DNA of 32,071 nt from Puniceicoccaceae bacterium (GTDB lineage: Bacteria > Verrucomicrobiota > Verrucomicrobiia > Opitutales > Coraliomargaritaceae), in the NCBI GenBank assembly GCA_007117865.1, contig SKFT01000020.1, positions 1 through 32,071 on the forward strand, given 5' to 3'. The position numbers were made by a program, and so were the translations under genes. Shown one piece after another: positions 1,648 through 6,534 of this stretch (within the stretch, counting starts at the first letter, position 1; the number at the start of each line of letters is the position of its first letter). A model generated the notes under the pieces. That model did no database searches. It was not told where the DNA came from and saw nothing but the letters and a program-made list of their open reading frames with translations.

Positions 1648-2100
1648 TTAAAGTCCAAATCGGGCCAGTGCCTGTGAGAGGGATACGTTGTCGGAGCTGG
1701 CTTGAGCGTCATAAGCGGCGGCATTGAATATCGAAAAGGATGTGATTTTGCCCAACAGCACCGCGTCCTTTTCGATTCCGCTATGTTGTAGCAATTGGGA
1801 GTTGAGATTGATGCGTCCCTGTTTATCGACACTAAAGCTCTGTGCCTTGGCCATGGTCTGCGCCAGCGCCCGCTGGGCCTCGATGTCGGCCATGCCAATT
1901 TTGGCGATACGTTCGCGCAACTGCGCGATCATCTCCGGACCATATACGGTGATGTAACCATCGGGATTGGGCAGGGCAAGGAAGGCGTCACGCTTGCCAG
2001 TGCTTTGGATACGCCATGAGGCCGGGATTGTTAATCGTCCCTTAGCGTCCAACGAGTGTCTAAACTCGCCAACGAAAAAACCTGTATCCCAGTTATCCAT
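1648..2100 (-). CDS. mraZ: Transcriptional regulator MraZ
   Basis: MraZ is a DNA-binding protein with two SpoVT/AbrB-type repeats that assembles into a ring and controls the dcw operon it heads. Both repeats are visible: DAKGRLTIPASWR at about 18-30 and VDKQGRINLNSQLL at about 90-103. The frame is open further upstream, but I place the start at the ATG at 2100 (MDNWDTGFFVGEF). That gives 150 residues, the family's normal size, and leaves the operator repeats upstream of the coding region. A GGGGA sequence lies just ahead of the start. The gene is first in the cluster, and autoregulation is likely through the repeats at 2125-2149. Confidence 0.95.
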   Translation of the reverse strand: MDNWDTGFFVGEFRHSLDAKGRLTIPASWRIQSTGKRDAFLALPNPDGYITVYGPEMIAQLRERIAKIGMADIEAQRALAQTMAKAQSFSVDKQGRINLNSQLLQHSGIEKDAVLLGKITSFSIFNAAAYDAQASSDNVSLSQALARFGL

Positions 2101-2124
2101 TAGTCCCCAAAAAATACCACAATG

Positions 2125-2149
2125 CACCATTTCACCCCACTTTAACCCA
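2125..2149 (-). promoter_or_regulatory. MraZ operator: three direct repeats of 10-base period
   Basis: Read on the minus strand, the bases 25 to 50 upstream of the mraZ ATG contain TGGGT-N5-TGGGG-N5-TGGTG. Known MraZ operators consist of three to four TGGGN-type repeats with five-base spacers, one helical turn apart. The match in sequence, period and position is close. A weaker fourth block (TGTTG, 2155-2159) continues the phase upstream. I did not find a convincing -35/-10 pair. Confidence 0.85.
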
Positions 2150-2199
2150 CCCGTCAACATAAAACAGCACTGAAAAACCACTTTATTTACAAGGGGGTG

Positions 2200-2308
2200 G
2201 TGCTTGCGGACGCGCTGGGCCCTGCGGGTTCCCCAAACTCACGTTTGAGGATACTGCGTATGCAGCCTCGCTCGTGAGAGCGGGGACGGCGGCGTGCTTG
2301 CGGACGCG
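2200..2308. repeat. Two-hairpin REP-like repeat, copy 1 (plus part of a second unit)
   Basis: This is an 86-base unit (2200-2285) followed by the first 15 bases of another (GTGCTTGCGGACGCG at 2200-2214 and again at 2294-2308). It carries two 20-base palindromes. At 2231-2250 the minus strand reads CCTCAAACGTGAGTTTGGGG. At 2266-2285 the plus strand reads CCTCGCTCGTGAGAGCGGGG. Each folds into an 8-bp stem (one T-G pair) with a GTGA loop. The unit recurs at 5037-5121 at roughly 85-90% identity. It lies between mraZ and the end of the M16 peptidase gene. Confidence 0.85.
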
Positions 2309-2334
2309 ATCGGAGTTGCCGCTCTAAGTTTTCG

Positions 2335-4917
2335 CTACCCCTCGCGTCGAACTGTCAGTCTCACGCAATGGTCGTTTTTGAAATAGCGCTGGGCGTGCTG
2401 ACTGAGATCGTCCAATGTAAGGGCTGCCAGGCGGCGATTGAAGGTTTCGCCGTCGTCGACGGGTTCGCCGTAAAGCTTGTTCAGGGCGGCATCCATTGCG
2501 CGGCTGCCAATTGCCTGCATGCGCATGGCGCGGGCGGCGCGGATACGCTTTTTACAGCGATCTAGCTCGACTTGTTCAACACCGCCGCTGCGCACGCGCT
2601 CGACTTCGTCGTCGATTGCGACATGCACTGCCTCGGCTTGCCCGGGATGGGTGCCGCCGTAGAAAACAAAGGCACCGCTATGAAGTCCGCTCACCCGCGT
2701 GGCTCCAACGTAGTAGGCAAGTCCCTGTTCCTCGCGAACGCGCTCGAACAGCCGACTGGAAAGTCCGCTGAACAGTTCATTCAGCACCATGGCACAAACG
2801 GATTCCGATGCGGACAGAATGCCGGGATCGGGATAGCCTGCCAATACGACGGCTTGCTCGCGGTTTTTATGCAGGGTGTGTTGGCCTGGCACTATTAACA
2901 GTTGCTGCCAGTCGACTTGTTGGGCAATGGCGTCCTTAATCGCGGGTAGCTCCTCCAGTGCCGTTTCCAATTGGGCGATCAACTCGGCTTCATCAAAATC
3001 GCCACTTACGGCGAGCGTCAGATTACCTGCGTGAACCAATTCCTGGTGCAATGCTTTAATCGCCACCGGGGTAAGTTGTTGCAAATCCTCGCGGGTGCCG
3101 TCGGCACTGATGGCCAGTGGGTGGTCGCCAAAGAATTTTTCCTGAAAACGCAGGAAGGCGTAGTCGAGTAATTCGTCCTCGCTTTCCTCAATTGATGCAA
3201 TTTGCGCTTTTTGTTCGCGTTCAAAAGTGCCCGGATCAAAGCGCGGATGCAGTAGCGCGTTGGCAAATAGCGGCAGGGCTTTTGGCAGATCAAACGGAAA
3301 AGCCTCCATTTGCAGCAACAGCGCGTTGTTGCCCGAGCGCGCCCGCAGACTTGCGCCCAAGCTCTCTATGGTCTCAGCCACTTCAGCGGCAGTCTGTCCA
3401 GTACTGTCTTTGGTCAGTAAGGTTGCCAGCAATTGACTCGATCCACGCTGACCCGGTTTCTCGACAAACGGACCCGCCTGCAGGGCAGCGCAAAGGTGGA
3501 TGCGCGGCAGCGTGGGATCCTTTTGCAGCTGTAGCGATACCCCCGATTTTAAGGTGTGCTGCTTGAATGCCCTGGTATGCTCTTTTGCTGCGGGTTTGTC
3601 TGTAGGCGCGGTGGTATCCTGCTGTGGCAGCAGACGCACGGTAGTGGATTCCCTTGCCAGCAAAAACTGCCGCGCGGCATCGATCAAATCGGCTTCCGCC
3701 AGCGATTGCAGGCGTTCGAGGTAGCGTTGCGGATAGTCCAGATCGCCTACCACCAACTCGGCGGCACCGAGACGTCCCGCCTGGCCCGCCACTGTCTTGC
3801 GTGCCGCTACCTCACCGGCAACCGCATTGCGTATCGCCTTTGCCACGACGCCTTGTGGAAGCCCATCGCTTTTGACGGATTCCAGAGCTTGCAAAATCGC
3901 TGTTTCCGCAGCTGACAACTTGTCCGCATCACAGGTGAAGCTAATGATGAATAAGCCGACATTGCCAGTGTTCCAGTTGTAAACATCGATCTCGTGCACC
4001 AAGCCGAGATCATTGCGCACCCGTTTCCAGAGTGTGGCACTTTCACCCGCACCGAGCGCCCGCGCAAGGGTATCGAGTGCGGGTGCCTGTGGATGGGTTA
4101 GCCCCGGCACGCGATAAGCGATGCAGCCACGCGCAATTTGATAATCGCAACCGAGAGTGGCGGAGCGCGGACTCAGTTGCTCGGGTTCCGGATCGCCCGT
4201 TGCGGGTCCGCTGCAACCCATCGGCAGTCCGCCAAAAAGTTTTTCGACCAGCGGTCGCAGCTTCTCACCGCCAACTGCACCGACCACTACCAGAATGCAG
4301 TTGTTTGGCAGGTAGCGACGGCGGTAGTAGGCAACCAACTCCTCGCGGGTGACTTTGGCGAACAGTGGACGATGACCGATGATAGGTTCGCGGTAGGGGT
4401 GCTTGCGGAAGGCCGTTTGAAATAAGGTTCGACTGAGCGTGTCGTGTGGATCGTCCAGATACATGTCAATTTCGCGCAGGATGACTTCGCGTTCGCGCTC
4501 GCAGTCGGCGGCATCGAGGCGGGCATGAAAGACCAGATCCTGCAACACATCGAGGCTTTGTTCGGTCGCCTCAGCGGGTGCGTCGATGTGGTAAACCGTG
4601 CGGTCATAGCTGGTGTAGGCATTGATCGAACCGCCGAAGCCGTGCACCTCGCGACTGATTTCGGCGGCGCTGCGGCGGCCCGAACCCTTGAAAAGCATGT
4701 GCTCCAGGTAATGGGAGAGTCCACTGCCCAACATTTCACCTTCGTGGACACTACCGGTCTTGACCCATACCTGCACCGAAACGACATCCGCATTCCAACT
4801 TGGGCGATGGATTACCGTCAATCCATTCGCCAGGACAAAACGCTCTGCCGGGGCGTCAAATACGCGGTCGAGAAAACCTTCAGGAAGGATGGACGAGGAT
4901 TGTTGTTCTGTTGTCAT
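2335..4917 (-). CDS. M16 family zinc metallopeptidase, fused two-half form
   Basis: This 860-residue protein belongs to the pitrilysin/insulinase family. The N-terminal half has the inverted zinc motif HYLEH (H69, E72, H73) followed by GGSINAYTSYDRT and a downstream acidic helix (EREREVILREIDMYLDDP, about 139-156) that supplies the third metal ligand. The C-terminal half (from about 430) repeats the fold but has SQLLATLLTK where the zinc motif would be, so it should be the non-catalytic partner domain. Some bacteria encode the two halves as separate genes; here they are one chain. No signal peptide is evident at the N terminus, so it may be cytoplasmic. The substrate is unknown, probably peptides held in the closed chamber. 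The gene stands alone between two copies of the same palindromic repeat. Confidence 0.92.
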   Translation of the reverse strand: MTTEQQSSSILPEGFLDRVFDAPAERFVLANGLTVIHRPSWNADVVSVQVWVKTGSVHEGEMLGSGLSHYLEHMLFKGSGRRSAAEISREVHGFGGSINAYTSYDRTVYHIDAPAEATEQSLDVLQDLVFHARLDAADCEREREVILREIDMYLDDPHDTLSRTLFQTAFRKHPYREPIIGHRPLFAKVTREELVAYYRRRYLPNNCILVVVGAVGGEKLRPLVEKLFGGLPMGCSGPATGDPEPEQLSPRSATLGCDYQIARGCIAYRVPGLTHPQAPALDTLARALGAGESATLWKRVRNDLGLVHEIDVYNWNTGNVGLFIISFTCDADKLSAAETAILQALESVKSDGLPQGVVAKAIRNAVAGEVAARKTVAGQAGRLGAAELVVGDLDYPQRYLERLQSLAEADLIDAARQFLLARESTTVRLLPQQDTTAPTDKPAAKEHTRAFKQHTLKSGVSLQLQKDPTLPRIHLCAALQAGPFVEKPGQRGSSQLLATLLTKDSTGQTAAEVAETIESLGASLRARSGNNALLLQMEAFPFDLPKALPLFANALLHPRFDPGTFEREQKAQIASIEESEDELLDYAFLRFQEKFFGDHPLAISADGTREDLQQLTPVAIKALHQELVHAGNLTLAVSGDFDEAELIAQLETALEELPAIKDAIAQQVDWQQLLIVPGQHTLHKNREQAVVLAGYPDPGILSASESVCAMVLNELFSGLSSRLFERVREEQGLAYYVGATRVSGLHSGAFVFYGGTHPGQAEAVHVAIDDEVERVRSGGVEQVELDRCKKRIRAARAMRMQAIGSRAMDAALNKLYGEPVDDGETFNRRLAALTLDDLSQHAQRYFKNDHCVRLTVRREG

Positions 4918-4974
4918 GTTGCGTGGGAAAGAGTTGGGTGGGTTGTGAAAGTGAGGTTAGGTTTTGTTAGAACC

Positions 4975-5004
4975 GAAATCGAAATCGAAATCGGGATCGG
5001 GATC
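4975..5004. repeat. Hexanucleotide tandem repeat (GAAATC x3, GGGATC x2)
   Basis: Five consecutive 6-base units (GAAATC three times, then GGGATC twice) lie in the spacer upstream of the M16 gene, directly beside the two-hairpin repeat. Variation in copy number would change promoter spacing without altering any protein. Confidence 0.8.
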
Positions 5005-5011
5005 GACGTAG

Positions 5012-5121
5012 CCTCGCTCGTGAGAGCGGGGACTGTGTGCTTCCGGTCGCGCTGGGCACTGCGATCCCCAAACTCACGTTTGAGGTTACTGCGTAATGTA
5101 CCCTCGCTCGTGAGAGCGGGG
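5012..5121. repeat. Two-hairpin REP-like repeat, copy 2 (three palindromes)
   Basis: It contains palindromes at 5012-5031 (GCTC version, plus strand), 5066-5085 (AAAC version, read on the minus strand) and 5102-5121 (GCTC version, plus strand). All have GTGA loops when read in their own orientation. The 85-base unit at 5037-5121 matches 2200-2285 in the same direction, including the leading GTGCTT-CGG-CGCGCTGGGC block. It sits between the gltX stop and the M16 gene start. Confidence 0.85.
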
Positions 5122-5166
5122 TAATCTGTCAGGCAAATAGGATGTAGCATTTCCAATGCGACGCGA

Positions 5167-6534
5167 TTAGCACTTCGCCAGCCCATGTAACCGCGACAGC
5201 ACGCACTCCTTGCCGAGCGTTTCCAGCAAAGGCATCAGGTCGGGGCCGCCGCTTTGACCGCTAACGGCGAAGCGGATCAGCGGGAACCAGGCGAAGGGTT
5301 GGATGCCGGCTTCGGCAGCTGCCTTTTCCAGGCTTGCACCTATCGTTTCGGCGCTGAAGGGCTCGACGGCATGCATGACCGCAATTACCTGCTGCAAGCT
5401 TTCCTGCCAGTTGGCATCGCGATGGATTTTCTTCTCCGCCTTGGCATCCACTTCGTAGGTATCGCTGAAAAAATAGGCGACAAATTCCGCCAGCGTTTCC
5501 AGCGAACGCGCCTTCGGCTGGCACAGTGCCAACACCTTTTGCAGGTAGTCCTCATTGCTGTCCTCTGCGACGATGCCAGCTTGATTGAGGATTGGACGTG
5601 CCAGCCAACAAAAACTCTCCAGCGGCAACTCGCGCAGGTAGGCAGTGTTCAGCGAAGACAGCTTGCGTTCGTCAAAACGGGCATTGCCCTTATTAATGCC
5701 GGGAAAATCGAAGGACTCAATAATGCTATCAATAGTCATCTTCTCCTGGTCATCCTTTGGATTCCATCCCAGCAGGCAAAGGTAGTTGCGCACGGCTTCC
5801 GGAAGAAAGTGACGTTGCTCGTATTCTTCAATCAACGCACCCTTGTCGCGCTTGCTCATCTTGCCGGGTCCGCTTTCCTTGAGGATCAGCGGGATGTGGG
5901 CAAAGACGGGCAGGGGAGCGCCAAAGGCTTCAAACAACTCAACGTGCTTGCTGGTGTTGGATAAATGATCCTCGCCGCGTATCACGTGGGTGATGCCCAT
6001 TTCAATATCGTCCACGACATTGACAAAGTGGAATACCGGTTCGCCGTTCTGACGGAAGATAACGAAGTCCTGTTCTTCGGTGCGCTCGACGCGTCCACGC
6101 ACGGCATCTTCAATTACCACCGGACGGTTGCGCACTTTTTCCACCTCCTGTTTTTTGAAGTCATCGTAGGCGGTGTAGCGCTCGCCTTCCAGACGAAACC
6201 AGATGGCACCGTCTTTTTCGTAGGCGCGTCCACTATCGAGCAGGCGTTGCAGGTAGCGCTGATAAATGGCGGAGCGTTCGCTCTGGAAGTAGGGGCCGCA
6301 AACACCGCCAACCTCCGGGCCTTCATCCCAGTTTAGACCTAGCCAGCGCATGCCTTCCAGCAGCACCCTTAAGGCCTCGTCGGTATTGCGCTGACGGTCG
6401 GTATCCTCAATGCGCAGAATGAAGGTGCCGCCAGTGTGGCGCGCATACAGCCAATTGAACAAGGCGGTGCGGGCACTGCCAATATGAAAAAATCCTGTTG
6501 GACTCGGTGCAAAGCGGACGCGGACGTTGGACAT
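5167..6534 (-). CDS. gltX: Glutamate--tRNA ligase
   Basis: This class I aminoacyl-tRNA synthetase charges tRNA with glutamate. The 455-residue protein begins [14 protein letters not shown], has the HIGS signature at 17-20 and KMSKR at 225-229, with RGEDHLSNT and the glutamate-pocket region RIEDTDRQR between them. The C-terminal helical anticodon-binding part is somewhat short and ends [10 protein letters not shown]. The insertion that binds zinc in some GluRS lacks the cysteines here, as in many bacterial forms. Whether it also charges tRNA-Gln cannot be told from the motifs. There is no Shine-Dalgarno ahead of the ATG. It is separated from tsf by a 235-base spacer carrying an inverted repeat, so it is probably a separate unit. 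Confidence 0.96.

Follow-up and report, generated by a model that had tools for sequence, protein, structure and literature searches.

The window, 32,071 nucleotides in length, represents an entire contig (C143) of a 1.86 Mb genome that is split into 184 contigs and is 83% complete. It contains five short palindromes arranged in two groups around a gene for an M16 peptidase (2335-4917, minus strand). The first pair is located between this gene and an mraZ-type ORF. On the other side of the M16 gene, the second cluster separates it from a gene for a class I tRNA synthetase (E/Q type, gltX-type; 5167-6534, minus strand); all five copies are intergenic (Table 1). Their positions are exactly those given in the original prediction, and their number is above chance, with five exact matches to the pattern in the window, whereas 100 dinucleotide shuffles gave 0.00 on average. 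As had been described, there are two stem versions, AAAC/GTTT and GCTC/GAGC, with compensating changes; the AAAC version lies in the opposite orientation (minus strand in both of its window cases), and the loop GTGA fits the GNRA type. The proposed period of 90-94 bases corresponds to a single interval at each locus, namely 90 bases from 5008 to 5098 and 94 bases from 2200 to 2294. The latter concerns a repeat flanking the first pair, which we read here as part of a longer BIME unit.

Table 1. Hairpins, spacers and flanking repeats in the window. The tag comprises the four bases directly 5' of CCTC.
Feature	Position	Strand	Palindrome proper	Tag	Details
Repeat flanking the REP pair (GTGCTTGCGGACGCG...)	2200-2219	+			90% copy at 2294-2313
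REP	2231-2254	-	2231-2250	GTAT (2251-2254, minus-strand reading)	stem AAAC/GTTT, loop GTGA
Spacer of first tags-inward (TT) inverted pair	2255-2261				7 bases; neighbour tabulation
REP	2262-2285	+	2266-2285	GCAG (one base off GTAG)	stem GCTC/GAGC, loop GTGA
Flanking repeat, second copy	2294-2313	+			94 bases downstream of first copy
REP	5008-5031	+	5012-5031	GTAG	stem GCTC/GAGC, loop GTGA
Spacer of tags-outward (HH) inverted pair	5032-5065				34 bases; neighbour tabulation
REP	5066-5089	-	5066-5085	GTAA (minus-strand reading)	stem AAAC/GTTT, loop GTGA
Spacer of second TT inverted pair	5090-5097				8 bases; neighbour tabulation
REP	5098-5121	+	5102-5121	GTAC (one base off)	stem GCTC/GAGC, loop GTGA; 96% direct repeat of 5008-5031

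Each hairpin is preceded by a 4-base tag, which is one base off in three of the five window copies. A genome search that left the tag free (CCTC-N4-GTGA-N4-GGGG) returned 11 exact copies, six of them tagged with GTAA, two with GTAG and three with a tetranucleotide one base off, all three in the window. GTAG-type REPs are characterized by an unpaired tetranucleotide resembling GTAG immediately 5' of the hairpin; this feature is found here, with GTAA as a variant. The pattern with tag and a relaxed loop, GTAR-CCTC-N4-GTNA-N4-GGGG, occurs in 19 exact copies distributed over many contigs and in six more with one mismatch; the reversed pattern, used as a control, gave no copy at 0 mismatches. Matches with three mismatches in this genome are noise (72 in total versus 102 in the reversed control). 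As in other REPs, a short imperfect palindrome is thus present in many copies, intergenic position having been checked for the five copies of the window. Elsewhere in the genome the loops GTAA and GTCA are found as well, together with further stems, chiefly GAAC/GTTC and GGTC/GACC.

The exact tagged pattern was detected in 5 of 57 genomes, including the one under study; three of the others belong to genus g9 of the same family and one to another family, where the single, unpaired copy looks like a chance match. With up to two mismatches on both strands, we counted 26 copies in this genome versus 4 in the reversed control; the corresponding numbers were 49 versus 6 in G013, 23 versus 2 in G027, 20 versus 2 in both G018 and G036, 16 versus 4 in G030, 15 versus 0 in G032, 14 versus 5 in G034 and 10 versus 3 in G021. 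No clear excess over the control at this threshold was seen in G008 (6 versus 6) and G024 (2 versus 1). To judge from these matches, the same element is present in the sister genus g9, and the expectation that the pattern extends beyond the two window loci was borne out both genome-wide and in this genus. Tag preferences, determined with a pattern that included the tag, were GTAA (17) and GTAG (4) among the 26 copies with at most one mismatch in this genome, and GTGG (42) and GTAG (15) among the 61 in g9, i.e. 57 of 61.

To assess stems, loops and arrangement, we used 40 stretches (39 loci and the window) from nine genomes. These were chosen for hits or candidates and sample parts of the genomes; some of them overlap, and each place was counted once. 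The pattern applied to them fixes the tag, CCTC, GTNA and GGGG with up to two mismatches, so that only the result for the N4 blocks is independent of it and the proportions of tags, loops and T-G pairs are partly set by the pattern. Of the 96 places matching at up to two mismatches, 64 are exact, 23 have one mismatch and 9 have two; complete pairing of the free N4 blocks, with G-T accepted as a pair, is seen in 59, 18 and 7 of them, respectively. When each of the 14 distinct N4/N4 combinations is counted once, 9 are fully paired, whereas 10,000 shuffles gave 2.1 on average and never more than 7. Selection on base pairing rather than on sequence, as inferred originally from the two stem versions, is supported by these values, which also reveal the sub-families with complementary stem changes that are typical of GTAG-type REPs.

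T-G occupies the third position of the stem in 90 of the 91 copies that pair well, although the pattern asks for T-G while allowing mismatches. The hairpins near the RAYT-type transposase genes of three relatives (see below) are the better evidence for this wobble, because the hairpin rule applied to them does not require T-G: the CCTC/GGGG frame was recovered in 10 of 10 hairpins in G013, 6 of 6 in G004 and 3 of 4 in G001, the fourth having CTTC with the same T-G pair. Other RAYT genes of the clade are accompanied by different hairpin frames. On the opposite strand the T-G wobble turns into an A-C mismatch, which makes the tag strand the better hairpin; for the GCTC stem, the predicted energies of the tag and the other strand are -13.9 versus -9.2 kcal/mol with RNA parameters and -6.6 versus -5.4 kcal/mol with DNA parameters. 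Neither the tag beside each hairpin nor the wobble within CCTC/GGGG was mentioned in the original prediction. Loops in the 87 copies with at most one mismatch, again under a pattern that asks for GTNA, are GTGA (34), GTAA (26), GTCA (24), GTTA (2) and GTGT (1). In the wider set of RAYT loci, which includes the best 80 of at least 305 named ones, GNA or GNNA loops were found in 117 of 228 hairpins, as against 28 when the complementary strand is read, and at 25 of 44 loci; for the wider RAYT clade this is only a tendency.

Neighbouring elements in the 40 stretches form 25 TT pairs (tags inward), 19 HH pairs (tags outward) and 7 pairs of the same orientation. Inverted pairs, sometimes in tandem arrays, are the arrangement of BIMEs or REP dimers. 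The stems differ in 44 of 44 inverted pairs and are identical in 7 of 7 same-orientation pairs, array members not being independent in either count; the rule that stem version and orientation go together, first noted in the window, thus extends to the stretches of this genome and g9. For the wider RAYT clade, 96 loci were considered, i.e. 80 named ones (the best 80 of at least 305) and 16 of 17 from relatives, L128 being omitted as the same locus as L175. Under a stricter hairpin rule, 44 of the 96 have at least two hairpins, and 36 of these 44 have them in both orientations. An identical stem in opposite orientation is absent at 23 and present at 13 of the 36 loci, so the rule is weaker across the wider clade.

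In the original prediction, the loops of the window pairs are perfectly complementary in any transcript, and the three invariant blocks are just those that can pair between the hairpins, so that two alternative folds, two separate hairpins or one joined structure, were considered possible. According to a switch reading, the pairs would be cis-acting RNA switches that toggle between the two folds via their loops and control the M16 and mraZ-type genes. Both loci do lie between co-directional genes, and when the two TT pairs of the window were folded as RNA, the joined structure came out as the predicted minimum in 4 of 4 strand readings, and in 14 of 16 readings for eight TT pairs in total (counted by eye), which makes it plausible for RNA; such a fold is, though, expected from any inverted copies. 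With DNA parameters it is the minimum in 9 of 16 readings, and in 1 of 4 for the window pairs (counted by eye). Irrespective of shape, the minimum for 11 pairs on both strands lies below that of two separate hairpins by 3.3-15.6 kcal/mol (RNA) or 0.8-9.4 kcal/mol (DNA). Perfect complementarity between the loops of inverted partners is confined to 4 of 44 pairs, three of which belong to the window; in 6 more, the loops are complementary but include a wobble when read on one of the strands, and in 34 they are mismatched. For this genome alone, the numbers are 4, 2 and 7 of 13. Loop complementarity is a consequence of inverting one loop sequence and is not preserved, and the conserved loop-loop pairing between partners by which a structured RNA would be recognized was not found. 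On the basis of this loop table, we discarded the switch with complementary loops. In addition, the same element is located on many contigs, and no Rfam family reached the gathering threshold in the region 1900-5400.

A link to the flanked M16 gene is not conserved either. In 12 relatives we inspected 13 M16 matches with about 1500 bases on each side where the contig allows, and found no copy with up to two mismatches at any of the 13 loci; a conserved association was thus dismissed, and the position of the M16 gene beside the REPs looks incidental. Matches with three mismatches (hand-counted) occur at 6 of the 13 loci and are hairpin-like only at L237 (in G001), where two hairpins of a related type are located just past the 3' end of the M16 gene. 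Taken with the loop data, these results render regulation by an RNA switch unlikely, and strongly so. Covariation and complementary loops in an inverted pair arise from a REP dimer without any such switch.

It is hardly credible that the hairpins are ordinary intrinsic terminators, or 3' hairpins stabilising mRNAs, that were repeated by accident. They are intergenic and, according to predicted folding, stable, but by eye none of the five is followed by a T-run on either strand. Nor would one expect of terminators a tag that lies beyond the stem, inverted partners that differ in stem, or arrays surrounding a transposase gene. Intergenic copies may nevertheless act secondarily as mRNA hairpins.

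A REP origin, which the original prediction had suggested to pursue through a RAYT-type transposase, gained support from the relative G013. Here, a gene for a RAYT-type protein of 172 amino acids (contig C78, 2526-3044) lies inside arrays of the same hairpin, with ten REPs within 300 bases, four upstream and six downstream. Such a REPtron, a RAYT gene flanked by the same REP, was found in this one relative and not in the assembly of the genome under study. We name the protein only RAYT-type because its score against NF047646 (REP-associated tyrosine transposase) is 48.7 bits and thus under the cut-off of 80, which does not certify it as a member of that model; there was no Pfam match at 1e-3. 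H67, H69 and Y121, corresponding to the HUH motif and the tyrosine, are invariant in 17 homologues, and a catalytic role of H67xH69 and Y121 is probable by analogy to the family.

At least two GTRG hairpins within 500 bases of the RAYT gene were detected in 16 of 17 relatives and at 46 of 80 named loci (the best 80 of at least 305), leaving 34 of these 80 without. Four controls with altered tags gave 0, 1, 0 and 0 of 17, and 5, 2, 6 and 0 of the same best 80 of at least 305. At least one locus (L128 = L175) belongs to both sets. The named loci, again the best 80 of at least 305, are mostly from Verrucomicrobiota, with some from Planctomycetes and others. In the nearest homologues (L123-L125, with 58%, 54% and 46% identity) the CCTC...GGGG frame is kept. 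RAYT distance and hairpin distance are correlated over 44 loci from a set including the best 80 of at least 305 (Mantel r 0.41; reached by 0 of 2000 permutations), which could be explained by co-descent alone. Of those g9 genomes for which a match is listed, G013 alone has a homologue of more than 50% identity; the nearest homologues in G032 (47%) and G021 (43%) are located amid hairpins of another type.

In the 83%-complete genome under study, a search with NF047646 and with a profile of the 17 homologues revealed no RAYT of the G013 clade; both profiles match only three Y1 proteins of about 330 amino acids. One might suppose that these own Y1 proteins mobilise the REPs in place of a G013-type RAYT. 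Three such genes are at hand, one of them, on contig C3, at a distance of about 2.6 kb from a REP, but none has GTRG hairpins within 500 bases, no convincing copy of this REP was found in their loci of about 3.2 kb, and tagged hairpins adjoin the G013 RAYT homologues in 16 of 17 cases. Lacking flanking tagged hairpins, the three genes were rejected as REP partners, and there is only a small chance that this alternative is correct. Several of the genome's own REPs lie within 400 bases of contig ends (C11, C117 and C145), and assembly breaks at REP arrays may thus hide a RAYT.

The family, its tag, the covarying stems, the arrangement in pairs and, in a relative, a RAYT-type gene within the arrays were all observed directly, and the hairpins are very probably REP elements organized as BIMEs or REPINs, i.e. 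miniature non-autonomous mobile DNA. One element consists of a GTAG-type 4-base tag followed by the short imperfect hairpin CCTC-N4-GTNA-N4-GGGG, and two elements with different stems lie close together in inverted orientation, at times repeated in tandem. As described for the TnpA-REP proteins of E. coli, Stenotrophomonas and Marinomonas (PMC8266576), a RAYT, as a Y1/HUH tyrosine transposase, would act on one strand of single-stranded DNA, where it recognises the tag plus the folded hairpin, cuts and rejoins; the invariant blocks more plausibly represent the features that such an enzyme recognises. We infer that the family is mobilised by a G013-type RAYT. The copies in this genome may stem from such an enzyme, which may have been lost since.

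More tentatively, and with considerable doubt, the two stem classes could mark the distinct termini, left and right, of a single miniature IS200-like element, with one RAYT reading both via tag, wobble and GTNA loop; the stem difference would then have been selected because it keeps the termini from fusing into one long hairpin. If true, this would explain the preference of REPs for heterodimers, which Di Nocera et al. 2013 (PMC3733652) state "has no obvious explanation". GTAG-type REPs, heterodimers and REPs of Opitutus have been known since that paper. What we describe is a typical REP/BIME family from a lineage of Verrucomicrobiota, new as a family though of a known kind; new are the family itself, the RAYT clade in the PVC group and the local rule relating stem to orientation. 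No literature report of this exact REP family was found in searches for RAYT/REP in Verrucomicrobia and for GTAG palindromes in Opitutus terrae. What our analysis contributes is one REP family from uncultured Opitutia, together with a RAYT clade that occurs in much of the PVC group and allows direct reading of the hairpins at its flanks. Through the rule on stem and orientation, the heterodimer puzzle becomes testable with natural pairs, and why inverted partners differ in stem is the remaining question of interest.

In E. coli BIMEs, REPs of different type occur in inverted orientation, and our elements resemble them (y with z1/z2 REPs) in combining different REP types in one unit and in having a conserved stem irregularity. 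In Pseudomonas REPINs, the REP doublet is the unit of dispersal and depends on a RAYT; here, too, the doublet appears as the unit. Unlike in Pseudomonas, where homodimers prevail in P. putida and P. entomophila (PMC3733652), the partners described here differ in stem (44/44 inverted pairs). E. coli REPs are, moreover, 29-37 nt in length with a conserved AA-GC mismatch bulge (PMC8266576), whereas the hairpin described here measures 20 nt and has one T-G wobble. For TnpA-REP proteins, PMC8266576 describes action on one strand only, use of the tag and reading of loops or stem irregularities; with the Marinomonas enzyme, tag changes such as GTGG shift the cleavage dinucleotide.

A further close resemblance is to the GTAG superfamily. 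In PMC3733652, GTAG-tagged REPs are reported from PVC bacteria, O. terrae being rich in them, with a GTGG tag in most of its GTAG-20 elements; the paper also describes dimers of the TT and the HH type as well as RAYT genes with REPs at their flanks, and it states the same two fold options for REP dimers. The elements analysed here share with this superfamily, including GTAG-17, -19 and -20 of O. terrae, a member of the same phylum (Verrucomicrobiota), a GTAG tag with GTGG as a variant, stems that are mostly 6-9 bp long and show compensatory changes and G-T pairs, and a short loop, as well as TT/HH dimers, heterodimers and the RAYT association (PMC3733652). They differ in the core CCTC-N4-GTNA-N4-GGGG and in the GTAA tag prevailing in this genome, the comparison with O. 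terrae being one of descriptions and not of consensus letters; identity with one of its REP families is possible. In their main features, the elements fit the GTAG-REP/TnpA-REP frame as outlined in these two sources (PMC3733652, PMC8266576).

The three Y1_Tnp proteins encoded by the genome under study are 325-335 aa in length and belong to a longer subfamily; long forms like these are present in many of the relatives searched. No GTRG-tagged hairpin was found within 500 bases of any of the three genes.

The long Y1_Tnp proteins (loci L012-L014)
Contig	Positions
C61	33024-33590
C3	55858-56412
C32	11056-11607

With a search pattern that included the tag, the prevailing REP tag was GTAA in this genome, versus GTGG/GTAG in the sister genus g9. 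Should the position of cleavage be set by the tag, in the way described in PMC8266576, the cleavage dinucleotide would be expected to differ between the two.

Immediately adjoining the REP cluster of the window, a short run of GAAATC and GGGATC units was seen by eye (4974-5005). In the relative G001, two hairpins similar to its own REP type lie directly past the 3' end of the M16 homologue (L237, contig C90, 1214-1322); this adjacency is probably coincidental.

GNA/GNNA loops, which confer exceptional stability on DNA hairpins, occur in 117 of the 228 hairpins near RAYT genes of the clade. At L154, L191, L201 and further RAYT loci of other Verrucomicrobiota there are hairpins whose loop is GTNA as here, on different stems.
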